Below are positions 21,407 through 33,531 of a stretch of DNA of 34,347 nucleotides, piece after piece. The translations under genes and the position numbers were made by a program. How positions within the stretch are numbered: the first letter of the stretch is position 1; each line of letters opens with the position of its first letter. The notes beneath the pieces are model-generated. The model ran no database searches and was not told the origin of the DNA. It worked only from the letters and a program-made list of their open reading frames with translations. Origin of the DNA: Prochloron didemni P4-Papua_New_Guinea (lineage in GTDB: Bacteria; Cyanobacteriota; Cyanobacteriia; Cyanobacteriales; Prochloraceae); NCBI GenBank assembly GCA_000252485.1, contig JH610546.1, positions 1-34,347 of the forward strand. The letters run 5' to 3'.

Positions 21407-22285
21407 ATGTCTGTAAGTAATAATCCTTGCCTCAGTCTAGCCATCGCCCGTCTGACCGCAGCAGGACCGGAAAATTTTGCTATTTGGACAATGGAATCTC
21501 CATTACCAGGAGGCTACGTTCACCACGATTCTACCTGGCCTGTTTCTTTGACTCAGAAATGGTTGGCATGGCAGGAAATGTTTTCTCTGCAAAATCAACC
21601 TCATCTACCTATGGAAGGGAGGACCGTTTTACCAAATCCAGAGAATGTTCCTGTTTATCCAACTGGGCCAAACTATGGCGGAAGATTGATGCAGGATTTG
21701 GGTATTAATCTTTGGCAGTGGCTCTTTGATGGTGCCATTCGTCATAGCCTGGATCGCAGCGAAGGAATCGCGATCGGACAAAATCAACCCCTACGACTCA
21801 GACTGGAAATTCGCGATCCTAATTTGATTGCTTTACCTTGGGAAATTATGCAACAAGCTGCTGGCAAGCAGGCAATTTCTCTCAATCAGCAACTGCTGTT
21901 TAGTCGCACTACCAGCGATGTGGATCCCATTAGCCAAAAGCTCCATCAGGAAGTATTAAACATCTTGCTAGTTTTGGGAAGCAATATTGATGGAGAAAAT
22001 TTGCAGCTTCAGCAAGAAGCTAATACCTTAGCAAGAGAGATAGAAGCAAGAGAGGTCCAAACAAATACAATTATTCCCCCAGTTCCTGCTCGTGTAGATG
22101 TTCTGGAACAACCAAGTGCAGAAGAACTAATCCAAGCCTTAGAAACTGGTCTTTATAACGTTGTCTGTTATAGCGGTCACGGTCTCACCTCCAGCGACGG
22201 AGGTTTGCTCCTCTTGCGATGGGATGCTACCCTCAACGGCACGGAATTAGCTCAGGTTTTGGTTCGCAATCAAATTACTTTTTAA
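21407..22285 (+). pseudogene. CHAT-domain protein, C-terminally truncated
   Basis: 292 residues. Residues about 95-292 match the first half of a CHAT (caspase-like, clan CD) domain: LEIRDPNLIALPWEIMQ, NILLVLGSNIDGENLQLQQE, and the catalytic His motif YNVVCYSGHG (about residues 250-258) followed by GGLLLLRWD. In a complete CHAT domain the catalytic Cys lies about 40-60 residues further on. Here the frame ends soon after (VRNQITF-stop), so the Cys is missing. The next bases (22,285-22,452) encode the end of an FHA domain in another frame. A deletion probably removed the rest of this gene and the start of an FHA gene. Confidence 0.8.
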
Positions 22286-22452
22286 ATTACCAAAATTGCT
22301 ACTTTCTTCGGGATTTTTCTCGTTTTGGCACGAGAATTTATTTAGATGGTGGATGGCGGAAAATTTATCATCAGGAAGTATCTTTAGAATCTGGAGTTCA
22401 GATTCGGTTTGGTAGCGACTACGGTGAAATTTTTGAGTTTTTGATTGATTGA
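22285..22452 (+). pseudogene. C-terminal remnant of an FHA-domain protein
   Basis: Open frame without its own start: NYQNCYFLRDFSRFGTRIYL, GGWRKIYHQEVSLESGVQ, then IRFGSDYGEIFEFLID-stop. The pattern (strand, D-x-S-x-x-GT, R-x-x-G, V-L-E-x-G-x-x-I-x-F-G) is the second half of an FHA phosphothreonine-binding domain; the N-terminal half is absent. Confidence 0.7.
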
Positions 22453-22893
22453 TGTTGTTGGTTGTTGGTTGTTGGTTGCTTGCACTGAGCTACGCGAGAG
22501 TGTTGGTTGTTGGTTGTTGGTTATTTGTTATTTGTTGTTTCTGATGGGTATCATGGTAGGGTGCGGCACTGCCCACCACAAGTTATTGGTTGGTTTACCC
22601 CGCTGACCTGACACGCGATCGCGTAATTACGGACACCAAACCGTCCCATCTCCCGTTTCTGGATCGGTTTCAAGAATGACACGCCATTTCATTTTGTTTA
22701 TTTATCAAATAATAAGTATAATAATTAAAACAGTAACTTGTTGATTTGTTATTTGTTATTGGTTGTTTGTTGTTTGTTGTTTGTTGTTGGTTATTTGATT
22801 TACCCCGTAGTTTTGTCTTAAGTAATATTGTAGGGTGCGGGCGCTAAGAGCGGCGCGAAGCTGGGCGCAACGCACCAAGCATATGTTTTACTA
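22453..22893. repeat. STRRs and GTAGGGTGCG palindromic repeats
   Basis: No gene is seen in this 440-bp stretch. Heptad STRRs (TTGTTGG type) are at 22,452-22,545, interrupted at 22,481-22,500 by a CACTGAGCTACGCGAGAG insert, and at 22,741-22,800. Palindromic elements: GTAGGGTGCGGCACTGCCCA at 22,556, and GTAGGGTGCG...CGCACC at about 22,831-22,877 with an inserted GC-rich stretch. A HIP1 core ACGCGATCGCGT is at about 22,613-22,624. Confidence 0.85.
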
Positions 22894-23211
22894 ATGGAAA
22901 AGCTGTTGACGGGAGACGTACAAGCAAGTTCGCTGACAATAACCACTGCAATATATGCCATTACCATTGGAGGTTCATCCCAAAGCCTATTGGAATTAAC
23001 ATTTGGCATAGTAGTAGGAATGTTCTTTGCAGCTATTTTCGGATTTGTGATATCTGGGAATGAACCGGCGGAACTACCAACTAGATTAGTATCTTGGCTA
23101 TTTATCATAGCAATCGCTTTATTCCATTTACCAGAAAGATATAATCGTCATGTAGTGGATAGAGAGCAATTTTTTCAGTTTCAACTAGAAGAAGAGAAAG
23201 AGATGGAGTAA
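22894..23211 (+). CDS. Membrane protein of unknown function (first gene of a two-gene cassette)
   Basis: 105 residues. Hydrophobic segments: SLTITTAIYAITIGG (about 13-27), LLELTFGIVVGMFFAAIFGFVI (about 32-53) and LVSWLFIIAIALFHL (about 65-79), with a charged C-terminal tail (QLEEEKEME). This fits two or three membrane helices. No family recognised. Its ATG follows a palindromic GTAGGGTGCG repeat within 20 bases, so its promoter lies in or before that repeat. The next gene begins 3 bases after its stop. Confidence 0.6.
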   Translation: MEKLLTGDVQASSLTITTAIYAITIGGSSQSLLELTFGIVVGMFFAAIFGFVISGNEPAELPTRLVSWLFIIAIALFHLPERYNRHVVDREQFFQFQLEEEKEME

Positions 23212-23214
23212 ATC

Positions 23215-23550
23215 ATGGATATTTTGCTGAAAGTCGGTTTAATTATTTTAGGAATTATTTGGTTTATTGGCATGACAAAAAACATCTCTAATGTAATCAA
23301 AAAACAACAAGCACTTTCTAAACTGCGCCAAAAACTTGCCCAAGAAAGAATGGCTAGAGAGTTAATAGAGAGTTTATCAACTAAACCAGAAAATACAGAA
23401 AATCTAGAAGCAGCAAGAGCATTAATTCAAAAATGCTTGCAGGAACTAGAACCTTCTGAGAGAAAACAAATTTTGCCCGGTTTAAACCAACCATCAACAA
23501 TAAGTCAAAGGAGCTATATTGTTTCCCTTCTAGAAAAAGCCGCACAATAA
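23215..23550 (+). CDS. Single-span membrane protein with coiled-coil-like tail (second gene of cassette)
   Basis: 111 residues: an N-terminal membrane segment ILLKVGLIILGIIWFIGMT (about 3-21), then a mostly helical, charged region (KKQQALSKLRQKLAQERMAR, probably coiled coil) and ARALIQKCLQELEPSERKQI. No family recognised. Start ATG 3 bases after the upstream stop indicates an operon. The pair is bracketed by matching compound repeats (22,741-22,893 and 23,554-23,712). Confidence 0.6.
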   Translation: MDILLKVGLIILGIIWFIGMTKNISNVIKKQQALSKLRQKLAQERMARELIESLSTKPENTENLEAARALIQKCLQELEPSERKQILPGLNQPSTISQRSYIVSLLEKAAQ

Positions 23551-23553
23551 AAT

Positions 23554-23712
23554 TTGGTTGTTAGTTGTTGGTTATTGGTTATTTGTTGTTTGTTGTTTGT
23601 TATTTGATTTACCCCGTAGGGTGGGCATTGCCCACCACAAGGTTTTGTCTTAAATTCTGGATAGTAATATTGTAGGGTGCGTTCGCAACGCACCAAGCAT
23701 ATGTTTTACTAA
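23554..23712. repeat. Right-hand compound repeat (STRR + palindromes)
   Basis: Same order as 22,741-22,893: TTGTTTG heptads, TTATTTGATTTACCCCGTAG, TTTTGTCTTAA, AGTAATATTGTAGGGTGCG...CGCACCAAGCATATG and TTTTACTAA. This copy carries an extra GGTGGGCATTGCCCACCACA palindrome and lacks the GC-rich insert of the left copy. From here to 23,820 no gene is seen. Confidence 0.85.
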
Positions 23713-23820: not shown

Positions 23821-26800
23821 ATGATTGACGAAATCCCCTTTCTCCCAGAACCTGGACTGAACTTTACTAACGATACCCCCCTATTAATTAACCAGAACAC
23901 CATAGGGGGCGTACTGCCCTTGGAGACAACAGTAACTAACGCGGACTTGCTGGCCACTGGGTTTGATGTGCTGACGGACCACGTCCCGGCAGAAGCAACA
24001 GAGATTGAGTTTACAGTTTTCAATCAAGGTAGCGAGGTCGCAAGGGATTTTGAGGTGGCCTTTGTCTACTCGGAAGATGAGATTATTGGTAACGCTGATG
24101 ACTTGCAGGTGGGAACCTTTGCCATAGCTGAGTTAGGGGCAGATGAAGAGCTAACTGAGACGAGAGCAGTTACCATTCCCCAGGAGAGATTGTTTGCCCA
24201 AGCTTTAGAGAAAGATTTGCCGGGACAGGGACTGGATTACGTTTCCGGGAATGTGGGTTATCTGGCTCTGGTGGTAGACCCGTCCAATCAGTTGGGAGAG
24301 TTGGATGAGAGTAATAATTCCAATCGGGGTCAGGGTGTAGATCTTGATAATATTACCTATTTCCCCTGGGATGTGAATGACAGCGGCAGGGTAACCCCTA
24401 CGGATGTGGTCTATATTCTCAATCGCCTGGGAGAAGAGGATGGTCTGGCTGATTTAGATGGGGATGGAACCGTTACTGGCAGCGATGTCATCTTGGTGAG
24501 AGATAGGTTGGGATACACCAGGAATGAAGCAGTATTTCAGGATATCCCAGAAGTTTTGACAGTGGAGATTTCTCCATCTAATGGGGAAGAGATGGTTAAC
24601 CTAACTCGAGAGACTATTGTTAGGTTTGGCGGAACCGTTCAGGAGGAAACTGTAACCCCGGAGTCTTTCTATTTAATTGCTAATGGCAGTAGAGTCCAAG
24701 GAGAGATCAGGGTTTCCAGTACGGGTGAGTTCGCGACCTTCTTCTACGACGAGCCTTTACCCCCATCTACGGAAGTGCGAGTGGTGGTGGAAGGCGATCG
24801 GATTCTGGCTATTAATGGAATTCCTATAGATGGGGATGGGGATGGTTTTGCCGGGGGGAGGGCCACGGCGGATTTTCGCACTTTGCCCTTGACTCAGATA
24901 GCGGGAACAAATGTTTTTGGCTATGTCTTTGATTCCTTCAATCGGGATGAGGAAGGGGAGAACATTCCCGTAGTGGGTGCCACGGTGCGAGTGGATGCCC
25001 TGCCAGAGTTGGTGGCGGTAACTGATGAGGAGGGTTTCTTTAAGTTAGAAAATTTGCCAGCGCCGGAGTTTGCAGTGCATGTGGATGGAAGTACTGCCAT
25101 TAATGCCCCAGAGGGGACAGTTTATGCCACGGTAGGGAAGATATTTGAGAGCGTTCCCGGCACTGAGGTGCAGTTAACTCACCATGGGGAGGTGTTTGAT
25201 GTTTATTTGCCTCCTATGGCCACAGAGGATATTCAGCAGTTGAACCCGGATGAAGATACTGAGGTAGGCTTGGGCGAGGCTGGTTTGGCTCAGTTGGCCC
25301 AGTCTTTCCCTGATGTGGAGCCCAGTGTTTGGGAGTTGGTGGAAGTGACTATTCCTGCTGGTTCGGCTCAGGATGATGAAGGGAATGTGGCGACCCAGGC
25401 CACCATTATTCCCGTGGAACGAGACAGGTTGCCAGGTCCTTTACCTCCTGGAGTGGAACCGCAGTTGGTGATGTCCATTCAAGCTGGAGGGGAAGAAGGG
25501 TTTTCTCAAGCTGGAGGAGCGACGAATTTTGATGTTCCTGCGCCGGTGACCTTCCCGAATTTGGATGGGTTGGCTCCTGGAGAGCAGAGTTTGATTTGGT
25601 CTTTCAATCACGATGCTGGGGATTGGGAGGTAATTGGGAATGGAACTGTGAGTGAGGATGGGACGAGGGTTGTTTCTGATGAGGGTGTGGGGATTTTGGC
25701 CCCGGGATGGCATTTTACTCAGCCGGGGACTGAACCTGAAGAACCTCCTGAAGAGCCACCTTGTCCTGACTTTGGCTGGGGAGATGCTTGGAAGTTGGGT
25801 AAAGCGGGTTTTGACTGCATTAAGAATTTGACAAGAGCTTTTCAGGCAGTAGGTGCTTTTGCTGATGTAATTGATAATATGTCGGATTTGAGCAAAGATA
25901 TAGAGACTCTCAGGAAAGGATATGGAGATGGAACGATTACTATAGATGAAGTGAAAGCAGCTGTGGGCAGGATTCAGAAAACCAAAAATTCTGTTGTTAG
26001 TGTTTGGGAAGCTGCAACTTCAGTCAATCCTGTGAGTAAGGCTATAGACGCTTTAAAATGTGCCAACGGCATAATACAAACTGCAAATGACCTAATATGT
26101 AAGCGGAAAGATTGTTCGGGAAAAGTTGCTGAATTTATATGTAATAAAATACAACCAATTCTTAAATTAGCTAATAAATTAGTAGATAAGATAGACGATC
26201 TAGATAAGTCTATTAGAAAGGCACCTCTAACAGCAGTTTGCCTTGCTTTAGATTCTTTTCTGACAGGTCTCGAAGTTGGTAGTCCGCTGGCACTGAGTGC
26301 AGAAGGGATTACCGCTAATAATATTGATGAGCCAGATCCTGAAATACTGGCAGCTATGGATGTGGTACTCGAAGAGATTGTCACTTTTGAAGAAGAAATA
26401 CAATCTGCGGGAGAACTAGAACAAACTCTTCAAGAGACCGAAATAGAGATGGAGGACTTGCAAGACAATGGACTAACTAGATTACTAACCCAAACTAAAG
26501 CCTATCGCAATGCATATTGGCGCATAACAGTAGGGGAGTTTGAAAGTAGGGGAGTAACTAGCGCATCAGGAGAGTTGAATTTACCAGTATTAGCCCCAGA
26601 AACCTCCTATCGCTTAGAAATATACGATCCAGAATTTAATGTCCTAGCGGTTTCTGAGGGATTAACAGCTCAAAGCGGTCAGCCAACAGTTATTGCTCCA
26701 TTCCAAACTCAGAGTCTTGATGATGCAGTAGATGGAGATGGAGATCAACTTGTTGATTTAGCGGAAGAAGTAGTTGGCACTTCTGCTATTAATTTTGACA

Positions 26801-29800
26801 CTGATAGTGATGGGATATCTGACTTTGCAGAAATTCAACAAGGACTAGATCCTCTCGGCGATCGCGGTTTTCCCACAGGCATAATCTCCAGTCTGCCCCT
26901 ACAAGGTGAAGCCAATGCGGTGGTAGTGGAAGGTTCCACCCTCAATGCACAAAATCAAACAGCCTATGTCGCTACAGGTTCCCACGGACTGGCAATTGTA
27001 GATGCCGGACAGTTCAATAACCCCATTGTCCTCGGTCAATTGGATTTAGCTGGGGACGCTACCGATGTGGCTGTTGACCCCAATTTACAGATTGTTGCTG
27101 TAGCTACTAATAGCGGTGGACTGCAATTGGTGGACGTATCCGACCCCATGCTCCCCACTTTGACACAAACTATTGATATCTCTGTCAATCAGGTAGAAAT
27201 TGTGGATGGTACTGCCTATGCAACCGCTAGCACTTCCTTAAGGGCTTACGACCTGCTGACGGGAGAAGAACTGCACAATACAACTTTACCGGGTTCTGGG
27301 ACCGTGACCGGACTTGCTCGAGAAGGAACTAATCTCTATGCTTATACCAGCGGTTCCGATACCTTCTCCATTATCGATATTGCCGATTCGTTAACTAGTA
27401 CTGTCCTCGGTCAACTGGACGTGTCAGTGGCTTCCTCTGAGGTGGGAGTATTTGCTGCTAATGGGGTAGCTTATTTAGCAGGGAGCGGATTGCAGACCAT
27501 TGACATTACCGACCCCAGTAACCCCACCCTCATTAGCGATGCAGATTTATTTTTCACTTCTCGGAATGTAACTCTCAATGGTTCCGGTTTGGCTTTGGTG
27601 GCTGCAGAAGGTCAGGGGATGGCAATTTACGATGTTAGCGACCCGGAAACTACTGATGCGTTCGTGACTGTAATCGATACGCCCGGATTTGCTCGCGATA
27701 TTGCCATAGCTTCCGGTATTGCCTATGTTGCTGATGATAATGGCGACTTGCAGGTAATTAACTATCTCTCTTTTGACAGCCAAGGTCAACCGCCAACAGT
27801 AACAATTAGCACCCCATCAGACATAGATACCAACACCGAAGGCATTCAGGTATTAGAAGGAGCCAATATTCCCATCATCGCCGATGTGGAAGATGACGTG
27901 CAAGTGCGCAACGTAGAACTGCTGGTCAATGGGGAAGTCCTGCAAAACGACCTTTCTTTCCCCTTCGACCTCTCAGCGGTAGCTCCCAATATTACCCCAG
28001 AGTCCAATACAATCCAAATTCAAGTCCGCGCTACGGATACTGGCGGCAATAGTTCTCTCTCTAACCAATTGACCATCGAGTTGGTAGAAGATACCTTTGC
28101 CCCAGAGACAGTGAGTACTACTCCCTCGGAAGGGGACAGGAGGCGGAACATACCAGCTATTTCCGTTCGCTTTAACGAAGCTATTGACACCGAACGACTG
28201 GATATCTCCGGTATTTCCCTCACCAATTTAGGGGAAGATGGGGTTCTGGGAACCGATGACGATTTCGCCGTCACTCCCGAAGGACTGCAAACAATTAACT
28301 TCGATCGCACTCTGGTGATTTTGCCCCCAGTAGATATGCCTCCGGGAGATTATCAACTGGCCATCGACCCAACTATAATTAGCGATCGCGCCGGTAACGA
28401 ACTAACAGAAGCCCCAACGCTGCAATTTACCAAGCGTCCCCTCAGTATCGACGTATCTTTAGGGGAAACTGTTGCCGAGACTATTTTCCTAGCGGGAGAA
28501 GATGAGATATTTACCTTCAACGGCACTCTCGGTCAGCGTCTATTTTTCGATGGACTTTCCGACAACTCTGGTTTCAGAAGTCGCTTAATCAGTCCCAGCG
28601 GCATTGAATTATTTAATATTGATTCAACTCAAAACAGGGAACCCTTTAGCATTATCGAAAGCGGTACTTATCAACTGATTGTAGACGGCGGTTTTAGCAA
28701 TAATACAGGCGACTTCAGTTTCCGACTGCTAGATTTAGCTAACGTTCCTACTCTTGCTTTAGATACTACTATCGAAGATACTATCGAGCTGGCAGGAGAA
28801 AGCGACATTTATCAGTTCCAAGGAATTGCAGAACAAAGACTTTACTTTGATGGTCTGGGAAGCGATTTTTCTGCTTCTTGGGAACTCTACGGCACAGCAA
28901 ATCAATTTATCAACTCCAATAGTCTCAATGGGGACTTTGAAGTCAGCCTCCCCACAGATGGCACTTATATTCTCCTAGTCAATAACAATTTTAGCCCAGA
29001 TCCTTCCGTTGATTACAGCTTCCAGATTGTCACTCCAGAAACTACAACCACTGCTTTAACCCTAGGAGAAACGGTAACGGCAAATATTGGCGAACCGGGA
29101 GAAATAGATATCTATACTTTCGATGGTACGGCAGGAGAAGGAGTATATTTTGATGGACTTGATGAAAATTTCACCAACATTAACGCCCGATTATTAAGTC
29201 CTAGTGGTGAGAGTTTATTCAATTGGGGCACCGATAGCAATAGCAATCCCATTACTTTGAGGGAAACTGGCACTTATGAACTGATTATCGACCCCAGCGG
29301 CGAAACTACCGGTAACTACAGTTTCCGTTTGTTAGATGTTGCTGCAGAAACGGAATTAGAATTAGACACCCCTATTACAGCAACTCTAGATCCGGGACTG
29401 GAGACCGATATTTACCAATTTGTGGGGACAGCAGAACAGAGGCTGTACTTCGACAGTTTGGCTTCTGTTTCCGGTGCTGATTGGTATCTGTACGGACTGA
29501 ACAATCAATTTGTCAACAGCAATTCTCTCGGTTTTGATTTTGAAGTTCAATTGCCAGGAGACGGACTTTATACTTTGGTAATTGAAGGTTTCAGCCCCGA
29601 CAGTACGGTAGATTATAGCTTCCAAGTTGTCACCCCAGAAAGGACCACCGCAGCTTTAACCCTGGGAGAAACAGTAACAACAAGTATCACCGAAGCGGGA
29701 GAAGAAGATATTTACACCTTCAGCGGAACCCCAGGACAGCGTCTCTACTTCGATGGTTTGGACGATAATAATAGCAGCATCAACGCTCAGTTATTGACTC

Positions 29801-32800
29801 CCAGCGGTGACAGTTTATTCAATCGCAGCACCAACAACAATAGCGATCCCTTGACTCTCATAGAAGCAGGGATCTATCAACTAATTATTAATCCCAGCGG
29901 CGAAACTACAGGGGATTACAGTTTCCGCCTATTGGATATTGGCCCGGAAACAGAATTAGAACTAGACACCCCTATTACAGCAACTCTAGATCCGGGACTG
30001 GCAACGGATATTTACCAGTTTGTGGGGGCGGCAGAACAAAGGCTGTACTTCGATAGTTTGGCTTCCGTTTCTGGTGCGAGTTGGCAGCTGTACGGACCGA
30101 ACAATCAATTTATCAACAGCGATTCCCTCGGTTTTGATTTTGAAGTTCAATTGCCAGGAGACGGACTCTATACCCTGGTCCTCGAGGGTTACACTCCCAG
30201 CGGAACAATCAACTACAGCTTCCAGGTAATCACCTCAGAGAGGAATTCTACTGCTTTAACTTTAGGGGAAACTGTAGCCGACAGCATCGACGAACCGGGA
30301 GAAGTGGATATCTATACCTTTAGTGGGACGGCAGGGCAACGACTTTATTTCGATGGGTTAGACAATAATTCCAATCTTAGCGTTCAACTATGGAGTCCCA
30401 CGGGAAGCAATTTATCCAACTTCACCACTAATCGCGACGGAACGCCTCTCCCTCTCATAGAAACGGGGACTTACGAACTAATTATCGACCCCAGCGGTGA
30501 CACTACCGATGACTACAGTTTCCGAATCTTAGATATTGCCGCAGCAACAGAACTAACTCTAGAATCCACCATCGACGGAACTCTGGACCCAGGGATTGAA
30601 ACCCACCTCTATCAGTTCTCCGCTACTACAGGTCAACGATTATTCTTTGATAGTCTTGCTAGTTCATTTTCATTCGATGCAGATTGGACCCTTTACAGAC
30701 CGGATAATCGTTTTCTGGATGGTACTAACTCCAGCAGCGATTTTGAAGCAACAATACCGGGCGATGGGGTTTATTTCTTAGCAATAGAAGGAGAAAATTC
30801 CAGCGGCACTACCAACTATAGCTTCCAAGTTAATGACATTAGCGATACTCCAGTAGAAGCAAGTGGTTTTGGTATTGTTCAAAGTGGAGAAATCGATCCA
30901 GGAGGGGAAGAAACCTTTACTTTCGATGCCCCAGCAGGGTTGCGAGTTTATTTTGACAGTCTCAATACCAACTCAAATCAATTAACTTATCAACTAATTA
31001 ACCCAGAGAACCAACAGGTATTCTTTATCGACGCTACCAGCGATAGAGACACTTTTACCCTGCCAATTTCCGGCACTTATACCCTAACTGTCAGCGGTGC
31101 TAACAGTAGCGAGACAGAAAACTACAGCTTCCAGTTTATCGATCTAGCAGTTAATTCCACAGAACTGACTCTCCATAGTGTAGTAACGGAAACTTTGCCA
31201 GCTCAAACTACCCAAGTTTACCGCTTTGAAGCTACCCCAGGACAACGCCTCTACTTCGATGGTTTGAGCAACGACAATGTTCGCATCCGGGCAGAGTTAC
31301 TCAGTCCCAGCGGTAATCGTCTCTTCGATGTAGATACTGGTTCCAATTTCAGTCCCCTGACAATTATCGAAGGGGGAATCTACTATCTAGTGGTAGATGG
31401 AGACCAAGAAAGCGAAACAGATTACAGTTTCCGCTTGCTGGATATAGGGGAAGCAACGGCACTGGAATTGGATAGTACCATTGACGACACTCTCGATCCT
31501 GGTCTGGAAACCGATATTTATCAATTTACCGGAACTGCCGGACAAAGGCTGTATTTTGATAGTTTGGCGAATGTATCCGGTAGTTGGGCTGTTTGGGGGC
31601 CAAACAACCAAATCATTCGCAGCAATTCTCTCAGTTCTGACTTAGAAATAGAACTACCAGGAGATGGCATCTACGCTTTAGTAATTGAAGCTTTCGCCTC
31701 AGACGGTACTGTAGATTACAGCTTCCAGGTAGTAGCCCCAACTGAAACTACCACTTCTCTTACCTTGGGAGAAACAGTTGCTGGAGAGATTGGCGAACCT
31801 GGAGAAGTAGATATCTATACCTTGAGCGCCACTGCAGGTCAGCGACTTTACTTAGACGGACTAGATCTAGAAACCAACATCGATATTCAATTGTTCAGTC
31901 CCAGCAGCAACGAAATTTTAAGTAGCTTCTTTGGTAGCGATAGCAGTCCGGTTACGATCACGGAAACGGGCACTTACCAACTAATTCTTAACCCCAGCGG
32001 CGCTACTACGGGAGAATATAGTTTCCGCTTATCAGATCTCACTCAAGCACCAGAACTAACCTTTGACAGTCTAGTTGAAGGAACCCTAGACCCTGGAGTG
32101 GAAACAGACGTTGCCACCGCTGGGGAAAGGATCTACTTCGATAGTACCGATACCGTCTCCAGTGTGAGTTGGCTGGTTTATGGACCGGGCGATCGCTTTA
32201 TTGATAGCAATTATTCCCTTTCCGACTTTGAAGTTACCCTCCCAGTGGATGGACTGTATACACTTCTGTTGGAAGGTTCCAACAGCAGCGGAACCACAAA
32301 TTACAGCTTCGTTGCAGTTACTCCAGAAACCACCAGTACAGCATTAACTCTAGGAGAGACAGTAACGGGAGCTATTGAAGAACCAGCAGAAGTTGATATT
32401 TATACTTTCGATGTCACTGCAGGGTCGCGACTCTATTTCGACGGTCTGGGAAATAATTCTAGTGTCGAAGTTCAGTTATTAAGTCCTTCTGGGGACCGTT
32501 TCTTTGATATCTTTAATATCTTTGCCAATAACGATAGCAATCCAGTTACAATCTTGGAAACTGGGACTTACCAGCTAATTATTGATGATAGTGGTTCTTC
32601 TACGGGAGAATACAGCTTCCGCTTATTAGATCTGACCCAAGCGCCAGAACTAACCTTGGACACAACCATAGAAGGAACCCTGGACCCGGGGGTAGAAACG
32701 GATATCTATCAGTTTGCCGGAACTGCGGTCGAAAGGTTGTATTTCGATAGCACCGATACGGTAGCCAATACCAGTTGGAGACTGTACGGACCGGGCGAGG

Positions 32801-33531
32801 GTTTGATTGAAAGCCGTTTTTCTCTTTCTGACTTTGAAGTAACCCTTCCGGTGGAGGGACTCTACACTCTGATATTGCAAGGTTTCAACAGCAGCGGAAC
32901 CATAAATTACAGCTTTGCGGCAGTTACTCCAGAAACTACAAGTACAGCATTAACTTTGGGAGAAACAATAACGGGGACAATTGAAGAACCAGCAGAAGTA
33001 GATATCTATACTTTCAACGGTACTGCTGGAGAACGACTGTATTTTGATGGCTTGGGAGACAATTCCAGCATCAATGCTCAGTTATCAAGTCCCAGTGGAA
33101 TTAGTTTATTTAACCGCAACAGTAGTTCCAATAGCGAACCATTTACCCTAATAGAAACTGGAACTTATCAATTGATTCTTAATCCCAGTGGTAACACTAC
33201 TGGCGAGTATAGTTTCCGCATGTTAAATATAGACAATTCTCCATTACTGCCATTAAATACCACCACCGAAGGAACTCTCGACCCAGGAATTGAAACAGAT
33301 ATCTATCAATTATCTGCTAATTCTGGGGATACAATCTTGTTTGAAGATGAAGGAAGTACCTTTTTTAATGCTGCTTGGCTTCTCTACGGACCGGGAAATC
33401 AATTTATCGACAGTCGTTTCTTTGGTTTTGATTTTGAAGCTACCCTAGTAGGAGAAGGCAATTATCTTTTATTGGTTGAGGGAAGCAATACAAGCGGTAC
33501 TGTCAATTATAGTATTCGTCCTGTTACCTAG
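23821..33531 (+). CDS. Giant modular repeat protein (CARDB, dockerin-like, Ig-like, LVIVD, 17 PPC-like repeats)
   Basis: 3,236 residues, ATG 23821, with an in-frame stop 15 bases upstream. Approximate order: CARDB (35-180); dockerin-like pair of Ca loops (DVNDSGRVTPTD, DLDGDGTVTGSD, 183-233); SbsA-like Ig (245-357); carboxypeptidase-regulatory-like (361-430); beta-rich part (465-640); Pro/Glu linker; helical region with six or more Cys (651-884); TSP3/EF-like Ca loops (DGDGDQLVD, DTDSDGISD, 970-1016); LVIVD beta-propeller (1020-1320); two Ig-like domains (1323-1537); then 17 pre-peptidase C-terminal-like repeats of ~100 residues. No signal peptide and no C-terminal anchor or RTX end are visible, although the domains are typical of surface or secreted proteins. 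Likely an extracellular adhesin or matrix protein; function inferred only. Confidence 0.9.
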   Translation: MIDEIPFLPEPGLNFTNDTPLLINQNTIGGVLPLETTVTNADLLATGFDVLTDHVPAEATEIEFTVFNQGSEVARDFEVAFVYSEDEIIGNADDLQVGTFAIAELGADEELTETRAVTIPQERLFAQALEKDLPGQGLDYVSGNVGYLALVVDPSNQLGELDESNNSNRGQGVDLDNITYFPWDVNDSGRVTPTDVVYILNRLGEEDGLADLDGDGTVTGSDVILVRDRLGYTRNEAVFQDIPEVLTVEISPSNGEEMVNLTRETIVRFGGTVQEETVTPESFYLIANGSRVQGEIRVSSTGEFATFFYDEPLPPSTEVRVVVEGDRILAINGIPIDGDGDGFAGGRATADFRTLPLTQIAGTNVFGYVFDSFNRDEEGENIPVVGATVRVDALPELVAVTDEEGFFKLENLPAPEFAVHVDGSTAINAPEGTVYATVGKIFESVPGTEVQLTHHGEVFDVYLPPMATEDIQQLNPDEDTEVGLGEAGLAQLAQSFPDVEPSVWELVEVTIPAGSAQDDEGNVATQATIIPVERDRLPGPLPPGVEPQLVMSIQAGGEEGFSQAGGATNFDVPAPVTFPNLDGLAPGEQSLIWSFNHDAGDWEVIGNGTVSEDGTRVVSDEGVGILAPGWHFTQPGTEPEEPPEEPPCPDFGWGDAWKLGKAGFDCIKNLTRAFQAVGAFADVIDNMSDLSKDIETLRKGYGDGTITIDEVKAAVGRIQKTKNSVVSVWEAATSVNPVSKAIDALKCANGIIQTANDLICKRKDCSGKVAEFICNKIQPILKLANKLVDKIDDLDKSIRKAPLTAVCLALDSFLTGLEVGSPLALSAEGITANNIDEPDPEILAAMDVVLEEIVTFEEEIQSAGELEQTLQETEIEMEDLQDNGLTRLLTQTKAYRNAYWRITVGEFESRGVTSASGELNLPVLAPETSYRLEIYDPEFNVLAVSEGLTAQSGQPTVIAPFQTQSLDDAVDGDGDQLVDLAEEVVGTSAINFDTDSDGISDFAEIQQGLDPLGDRGFPTGIISSLPLQGEANAVVVEGSTLNAQNQTAYVATGSHGLAIVDAGQFNNPIVLGQLDLAGDATDVAVDPNLQIVAVATNSGGLQLVDVSDPMLPTLTQTIDISVNQVEIVDGTAYATASTSLRAYDLLTGEELHNTTLPGSGTVTGLAREGTNLYAYTSGSDTFSIIDIADSLTSTVLGQLDVSVASSEVGVFAANGVAYLAGSGLQTIDITDPSNPTLISDADLFFTSRNVTLNGSGLALVAAEGQGMAIYDVSDPETTDAFVTVIDTPGFARDIAIASGIAYVADDNGDLQVINYLSFDSQGQPPTVTISTPSDIDTNTEGIQVLEGANIPIIADVEDDVQVRNVELLVNGEVLQNDLSFPFDLSAVAPNITPESNTIQIQVRATDTGGNSSLSNQLTIELVEDTFAPETVSTTPSEGDRRRNIPAISVRFNEAIDTERLDISGISLTNLGEDGVLGTDDDFAVTPEGLQTINFDRTLVILPPVDMPPGDYQLAIDPTIISDRAGNELTEAPTLQFTKRPLSIDVSLGETVAETIFLAGEDEIFTFNGTLGQRLFFDGLSDNSGFRSRLISPSGIELFNIDSTQNREPFSIIESGTYQLIVDGGFSNNTGDFSFRLLDLANVPTLALDTTIEDTIELAGESDIYQFQGIAEQRLYFDGLGSDFSASWELYGTANQFINSNSLNGDFEVSLPTDGTYILLVNNNFSPDPSVDYSFQIVTPETTTTALTLGETVTANIGEPGEIDIYTFDGTAGEGVYFDGLDENFTNINARLLSPSGESLFNWGTDSNSNPITLRETGTYELIIDPSGETTGNYSFRLLDVAAETELELDTPITATLDPGLETDIYQFVGTAEQRLYFDSLASVSGADWYLYGLNNQFVNSNSLGFDFEVQLPGDGLYTLVIEGFSPDSTVDYSFQVVTPERTTAALTLGETVTTSITEAGEEDIYTFSGTPGQRLYFDGLDDNNSSINAQLLTPSGDSLFNRSTNNNSDPLTLIEAGIYQLIINPSGETTGDYSFRLLDIGPETELELDTPITATLDPGLATDIYQFVGAAEQRLYFDSLASVSGASWQLYGPNNQFINSDSLGFDFEVQLPGDGLYTLVLEGYTPSGTINYSFQVITSERNSTALTLGETVADSIDEPGEVDIYTFSGTAGQRLYFDGLDNNSNLSVQLWSPTGSNLSNFTTNRDGTPLPLIETGTYELIIDPSGDTTDDYSFRILDIAAATELTLESTIDGTLDPGIETHLYQFSATTGQRLFFDSLASSFSFDADWTLYRPDNRFLDGTNSSSDFEATIPGDGVYFLAIEGENSSGTTNYSFQVNDISDTPVEASGFGIVQSGEIDPGGEETFTFDAPAGLRVYFDSLNTNSNQLTYQLINPENQQVFFIDATSDRDTFTLPISGTYTLTVSGANSSETENYSFQFIDLAVNSTELTLHSVVTETLPAQTTQVYRFEATPGQRLYFDGLSNDNVRIRAELLSPSGNRLFDVDTGSNFSPLTIIEGGIYYLVVDGDQESETDYSFRLLDIGEATALELDSTIDDTLDPGLETDIYQFTGTAGQRLYFDSLANVSGSWAVWGPNNQIIRSNSLSSDLEIELPGDGIYALVIEAFASDGTVDYSFQVVAPTETTTSLTLGETVAGEIGEPGEVDIYTLSATAGQRLYLDGLDLETNIDIQLFSPSSNEILSSFFGSDSSPVTITETGTYQLILNPSGATTGEYSFRLSDLTQAPELTFDSLVEGTLDPGVETDVATAGERIYFDSTDTVSSVSWLVYGPGDRFIDSNYSLSDFEVTLPVDGLYTLLLEGSNSSGTTNYSFVAVTPETTSTALTLGETVTGAIEEPAEVDIYTFDVTAGSRLYFDGLGNNSSVEVQLLSPSGDRFFDIFNIFANNDSNPVTILETGTYQLIIDDSGSSTGEYSFRLLDLTQAPELTLDTTIEGTLDPGVETDIYQFAGTAVERLYFDSTDTVANTSWRLYGPGEGLIESRFSLSDFEVTLPVEGLYTLILQGFNSSGTINYSFAAVTPETTSTALTLGETITGTIEEPAEVDIYTFNGTAGERLYFDGLGDNSSINAQLSSPSGISLFNRNSSSNSEPFTLIETGTYQLILNPSGNTTGEYSFRMLNIDNSPLLPLNTTTEGTLDPGIETDIYQLSANSGDTILFEDEGSTFFNAAWLLYGPGNQFIDSRFFGFDFEATLVGEGNYLLLVEGSNTSGTVNYSIRPVT
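28441..33528 (+). repeat. 17 alternating A/B PPC-like repeats (about 300 bp each)
   Basis: Start points: about 28,441, 28,747, 29,047, 29,353, 29,650, 29,953, 30,250, 30,553, 30,856, 31,158, 31,455, 31,755, 32,055, 32,340, 32,646, 32,946 and 33,243. A type: LTLGETV...DIYTF, GQRLYFDGL, LLSPSG, ETGTYQLII, YSFRLLD. B type: LDTTI..TLDPG.ETDIYQF, LYFDSL, YGPNNQFI, DFEV.LPGDGLYTLV, YSFQVVTPE. A and B alternate strictly except for the ninth repeat, which is a divergent form. Each resembles a bacterial pre-peptidase C-terminal (PPC) beta-sandwich. Confidence 0.85.

Follow-up and report, generated by a model that had tools for sequence, protein, structure and literature searches.

Two small membrane-protein genes between compound direct repeats in Prochloron didemni, and a relative in P2-like coliphages

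The gene pair and its repeats

The window, i.e., the whole stretch of DNA analysed, comprises 34,347 nucleotides of a contig (JH610546.1) of Prochloron didemni P4-Papua_New_Guinea. All features are given on its forward strand. Two small genes lie here between long direct repeats. Gene 1 (22894 to 23211; P1, 105 aa) encodes a membrane protein, gene 2 (23215 to 23550; P2, 111 aa) a protein with an N-terminal transmembrane helix and a helical domain. The codon usage of both ORFs is coding-like, each scoring above all of 1000 shuffles, and a GGAG resembling a Shine-Dalgarno motif precedes gene 2 and overlaps the end of gene 1. The genes themselves, called "overlapping-spaced" in an earlier sequence-only reading, do not overlap: 3 nt lie between the stop at 23211 and the ATG at 23215. 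They had also been described as membrane genes of unknown family. Both are indeed membrane genes, but gene 1 belongs to a family that has been catalogued, if not characterised, as phrog_22626.

Pfam, NCBIfam and PADLOC yielded no family above cut-off for either gene. Structure searches with single-sequence models of modest confidence gave no significant fold match, and no solved structure was found. The helical part of gene 2 weakly resembles the N-terminal module of cyanobacterial pentapeptide-repeat proteins (18.5 bits, where none of 4000 shuffles exceeded 10.1). This match was picked from a large search, and gene 2 contains no pentapeptide repeats.

The repeats on either side are composite. 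The left copy extends from 22741 to 22894 and the right one from 23554 to 23712; their existence, order and orientation are as the first reading had them. The left copy begins with an STRR heptad array (22738 to 22797), followed by a locus-specific core, TTTGATTTACCCCGTAG-TTTTGTCTTAAGTAATATTG, which the alignment places at 22794 to 22830 and which here lacks an inner REP. Then come the long form of a GTAG-REP (47 nt; 22830 to 22876), of which near-identical copies are found at many other sites of the genome, and a 21-mer tail, ACCAAGCATATGTTTTACTAA (22874 to 22894). The right copy starts with its own STRR heptad array (23554 to 23606), carries a GTAG-REP of its own, GTAGGGTGGGCATTGCCCACC (23616 to 23636), then a short form of the other GTAG-REP, GTAGGGTGCGTTCGCAACGCACC (23672 to 23694), and ends with the second and only other copy of the tail (23692 to 23712). 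A palindrome had been noticed before in both copies. It is present, but with other letters: the real palindrome consists of GTAG plus GGTGCG...CGCACC, while AAGCATATGTTTTACTAA is a unique flank. A third, partial compound repeat lies just upstream (22501 to 22606). It is built from an STRR, a hybrid GTAG hairpin (22556 to 22577) and GGTTTACCCCG, and its segment 22501 to 22588 is 80% identical to 23559 to 23647.

The likeness of the left and right repeats is far above chance. In an explicit global alignment 116 of 126 aligned bases are identical, and outside the STRR heptad array the figure is 75 of 77 aligned positions (97%). Three indels distinguish the copies: the right one alone has a 23-nt REP hairpin and a further 10 nt, the left one alone 24 nt inside the last hairpin. 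In the whole genome (5.69 Mb) the tail ACCAAGCATATGTTTTACTAA has just these two occurrences, even when up to 3 mismatches are allowed; its reversed control has none. The two copies are therefore true, homologous local duplicates, direct and recent. Apart from its first bases, which are the end of the STRR, the core at 22794 to 22830 has no counterpart in 344 kb sampled from other contigs.

The surroundings show further peculiarities. Just upstream of the repeats (21407 to 22452) lies a fragment related to the cell-division/CHAT protein HetF (NF045509; 109 bits, cut-off 1200), which apparently goes on in another frame at 22219 to 22452 and probably represents a decayed or truncated gene. Downstream, 23821 to 33531 encode a probably secreted protein of 3236 aa with many repeats, the coding repeats extending from 28491 to 33439. 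Tandem repeats with periods of 75 and 24 occupy 1 to 293, 525 to 597 and 1112 to 1230. A comparison with two congeners revealed no empty site: they have the PP2C gene upstream, but in G001 the genes on the downstream side are others, so that the region is not syntenic there, and in G002 the contig ends.

GTAG-REPs, STRRs and repeat brackets across the genome

When either repeat copy was used as a query against its own genome, about 70 matches were obtained with each, but to separate modules, i.e., STRR heptads or hairpins. Densities were taken from a sample of 40 contigs. These 344 kb contained 33 STRR arrays, 20 hairpins of the type GTAGGGTGCG..CGCACC and 6 of the type GGGTGGGCA..TGCCCACC; shuffled sequence contained none. 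Extrapolation from this sample suggests hundreds of hairpin copies in the genome. In 360 kb sampled from the complete genome of the congener G001, the two hairpin types had 1 and 2 copies and STRRs none. The window itself harbours many more STRR arrays than those of the compound repeats.

All aligned hairpin copies start with GTAG, continue with a stem-loop and have variable flanks; in folding, the GTAG remains unpaired 5' of the stem. They qualify as GTAG-REPs by the unpaired tag at the end of a palindrome, by high-copy intergenic dispersion and by a cognate transposase with flanking REPs. Five Y1 proteins of this genome score 180 to 197 bits with NCBIfam NF047646, the REP-associated tyrosine transposase (RAYT), where the cut-off is 80. 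Hairpins of the form GTAGGGTGCGTT...AACGCACC, the stem type of the short form in the right repeat, flank the RAYTs on contigs C464 and C647; those beside the RAYT on C401 are GTAGGGTGGGCATTGCCCACC (and GGGTGGGCATCGCCCACC), the stem type of the REP peculiar to the right copy. Because of these matching stems, both hairpin types of the window repeat probably have cognate transposases. Around another RAYT gene, on C460 (L140), lie some dozen GTAGGTTGGGTT repeats; they seem to make up a third REP family, served by this transposase.

The two copies also differ by one REP. In the left one CCCCGTAG is directly followed by TTTTGTC; in the right one GGTGGGCATTGCCCACCACAAGG stands between CCCCGTAG and TTTTGTC. 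They thus form a paralogous pair of sites without and with the 23-nt REP. By our own reading of the alignment, the REP would have been inserted next to a GTAG tetranucleotide, precise loss being the alternative. The pair is consistent with cleavage or mobilisation by a RAYT. A single locus, in a genome encoding several RAYTs, offers a clean comparison of sites with and without a GTAG-REP beside GTAG, which bears on how REPs spread.

Repeat brackets, defined as pairs of direct repeats (40 nt or longer, 80% or more identical) that enclose an ORF within 1.5 kb, are not rare in this genome. In the genome sample 11 of 97 small ORFs (about 11%) lie between direct repeats, in G001 5 of 108. There are also 55 noncoding local pairs of direct repeats in 336 kb of this genome, many of them locus-specific. 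Since such brackets are common here and the repeats consist mostly of genome-wide STRRs and GTAG-REPs, a bracket on its own does little to show that a dedicated mobile unit is present.

Some brackets deserve mention in their own right. On C303 (L116; 1078 to 2082) a ParE-type toxin-antitoxin pair lies between 71-nt direct repeats that are 100% identical and have a GTAG-REP inside; it is the closest parallel to the architecture of the window. On C100 (L093; 6923 to 8181) a PIN-domain toxin pair is enclosed by 220-nt direct repeats (80%) with a GTAG-REP at the repeat start, and C315 has a HicB-like gene in a GTAG-containing direct-repeat bracket. In G001 (L145; 16034 to 17294), 159-nt direct repeats (91%) enclose a pair of neighbouring small genes, of 96 and 111 aa, that belong to no known family.

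The phage relative of gene 1

Residues 1 to 96 of gene 1 match phrog_22626, a PHROG family of unknown function, with an E value of 7.9e-20 (profile positions 32 to 130 of 133). A phage collection gave a match to Peduovirus P24A7b, and the ORF of that phage matches the same family at 1e-51. With the P2-like phage protein WP_071598983, gene 1 shares 41% identity, the Smith-Waterman score being 141 versus a maximum of 45 in 2000 shuffles, and both proteins have the C-terminal end ERYNRHVxDxxxFFxF. None of the libraries searched describes a function for phrog_22626.

In Escherichia coli, 9 nt separate the gene of WP_071598983 (135 aa) from the next one, which encodes WP_048266375 (163 aa), a protein with one N-terminal transmembrane helix and a charged helical body. 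The two sit between the tail-fibre assembly gene (G) and the tail sheath gene (FI). They were found in phage P24A7b, in E. coli AR_0081, in E. coli isolate 30348_2#316 and in one IMG/VR contig; further searches of viral and plasmid sequences gave no more matches. The phage gene is rare, occurring in 2 of 5426 complete E. coli genomes, and neither PADLOC nor Pfam has a family above cut-off for the pair. In P2 this position is that of Z/fun, which lies between FI and G and is listed under phage exclusion (PMC3091744). The fun-holding locus of P2-like phages is enriched in defence genes (PMC9519451), and such genes are documented for P2-like phages in general (PMC9122126).

The second genes, in contrast, do not match. 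Gene 2 scored 36 against WP_048266375, the shuffle mean being 33. There is no detectable similarity, and the window pair was not counted as a member of the two-gene module of the Z/fun slot. Conservation as a pair therefore rests on layout only.

A search for the pair elsewhere had been proposed as a check of the cassette idea. Relatives of gene 1 exist in P2-like coliphages, where again a second membrane gene comes directly after it. An orthologue of the pair is absent from 388 other genomes of the order. Single-protein scans of genome-contig, viral-contig and plasmid collections detected no close relative of gene 1 or gene 2. The family of gene 1 was found in only two places, this cyanobacterium and P2-like coliphages. 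Absence from the order together with relatives in coliphages fits an accessory, horizontally acquired cassette.

Interpretation and comparison with known systems

The locus has the look of a small accessory cassette that was acquired recently, and not that of a novel type of mobile element. Our best explanation, to which we adhere tentatively, is a horizontally acquired two-gene membrane accessory module in a repeat-rich intergenic region, possibly antiviral and flanked by recombinable repeats. The main competitor, itself quite possible, is ordinary repeat clutter: scattered STRRs and GTAG-REPs plus a chance local tandem duplication around a small lineage-specific operon, with no mobility of a cassette. 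That the components are spread over the genome, that further STRR arrays abound in the window and that the frequencies of bracketed small ORFs and noncoding repeat pairs are as high as given above all speak for it. Yet clutter explains neither why gene 1 has its nearest relatives in accessory loci of phages and is missing from related cyanobacteria, nor the 97% identity of a locus-specific core. The original cassette claim fares accordingly: a compact two-gene membrane unit does lie between true recent direct duplicates, but the bracket by itself says little about mobility. An integron cassette or a transposon finds no support either, as the DNA between the repeats contains no integrase or transposase gene and no terminal inverted repeats.

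More specific functions fare worse. A toxin-antitoxin-like addiction cassette is suggested by the other two-gene modules in GTAG-containing brackets, which are toxin-antitoxin systems (the PIN pair of C100 and the ParE pair of C303, to which the HicB-like gene of C315 may be added). An apparent enrichment of toxin-antitoxin loci in brackets (16 of 41 versus 37 of 400 random windows) had to be dropped, however: with small ORFs as controls and noncoding repeats taken into account it shrank to 7 of 41 versus 11 of 97 (Fisher p 0.41). Moreover, gene 1 and gene 2 both encode membrane proteins, without likeness to any known toxin or antitoxin, which makes an addiction cassette quite improbable. Even less credit is due to a degenerate Mn2+/H+ antiporter (a UPF0016/GDT1 half-protein) with an accessory subunit. 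With an HMM for the second half of cyanobacterial UPF0016, gene 1 reaches 26.6 bits, more than any of 4000 shuffles, yet this HMM was built from the best matches of gene 1 itself, so that the score is biased upwards. The match to phrog_22626 is far stronger. As the defining E-x-G-D-(K/R)-(S/T) motif is absent from gene 1 and its phage relative shows no likeness to UPF0016 (31 versus a shuffle mean of 24, a score reached in 140 of 2000 shuffles), this function was abandoned.

Returning to the acquired accessory module, the sequence of events may be pictured as follows. A two-gene membrane module would have been acquired horizontally into a repeat-rich intergenic region. Most likely at or after integration, a local duplication, by homologous recombination at a shared segment or as a tandem duplication, would have doubled a locus-specific segment of about 77 nt that lies within STRRs and bears GTAG-REPs. 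Thereafter one copy presumably gained or lost the 23-nt REP beside GTAG, as expected for REPs handled by RAYTs. The repeats, being 97% identical, could serve RecA-type recombination that removes or multiplies the cassette, and excision by recombination is plausible. The products would act at the membrane, either against phages that infect the cell or in phage exclusion. Gene 1 could be the multi-pass effector and gene 2 its membrane-anchored partner, whose cytoplasmic helical domain might sense or gate. The anatomy of the repeats, their duplication, the presence of REPs and RAYTs, the homology of gene 1 and the common two-gene layout are established by the sequences, whereas we infer the antiviral role, the integration route and the excision alike; a position in a defence hotspot is no proof of defence. 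The boldest version is rather unlikely: an undescribed two-gene membrane antiviral module common to cyanobacterial chromosomes and P2-like coliphages, which here would come and go as a cassette through recombination between REP/STRR direct repeats. What can be said is that an unannotated cyanobacterial operon is linked to an unannotated phage operon in a defence-enriched slot, which provides a small, testable candidate for an antiviral or exclusion module.

The repeats of the window add further examples to kinds already known. In filamentous cyanobacteria, small dispersed repeats and STRRs were reportedly described by Elhai et al. in 2008; intergenic heptad arrays and small nested repeats are common to both cases, while here two copies flank one operon. 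With the GTAG-tagged REPs associated with RAYT/TnpA-REP (PMC3733652, PMC6006769), whose GTAG superfamily includes cyanobacterial families (PMC3733652), they share the unpaired 5' GTAG, the stem-loop, many intergenic copies and RAYT genes with matching hairpins; this likeness to the superfamily, whose published cyanobacterial families are GTAG-12, -15 and -16, is one of tag and architecture. The genes are best compared with the P24A7b pair (phrog_22626/WP_071598983 plus WP_048266375). Gene 1 is homologous over most of its length, though it lacks the first transmembrane stretch of WP_071598983, and in both cases a second gene follows a few bases on and encodes an N-terminal transmembrane helix with a helical charged body. 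The window pair differs in being chromosomal, cyanobacterial and bracketed by repeats, and the second genes have no detectable sequence kinship. Finally, although the window pair is not part of a prophage, its homologous phage pair sits in exactly the slot of the P2 Z/fun accessory genes, which serve phage exclusion and defence.
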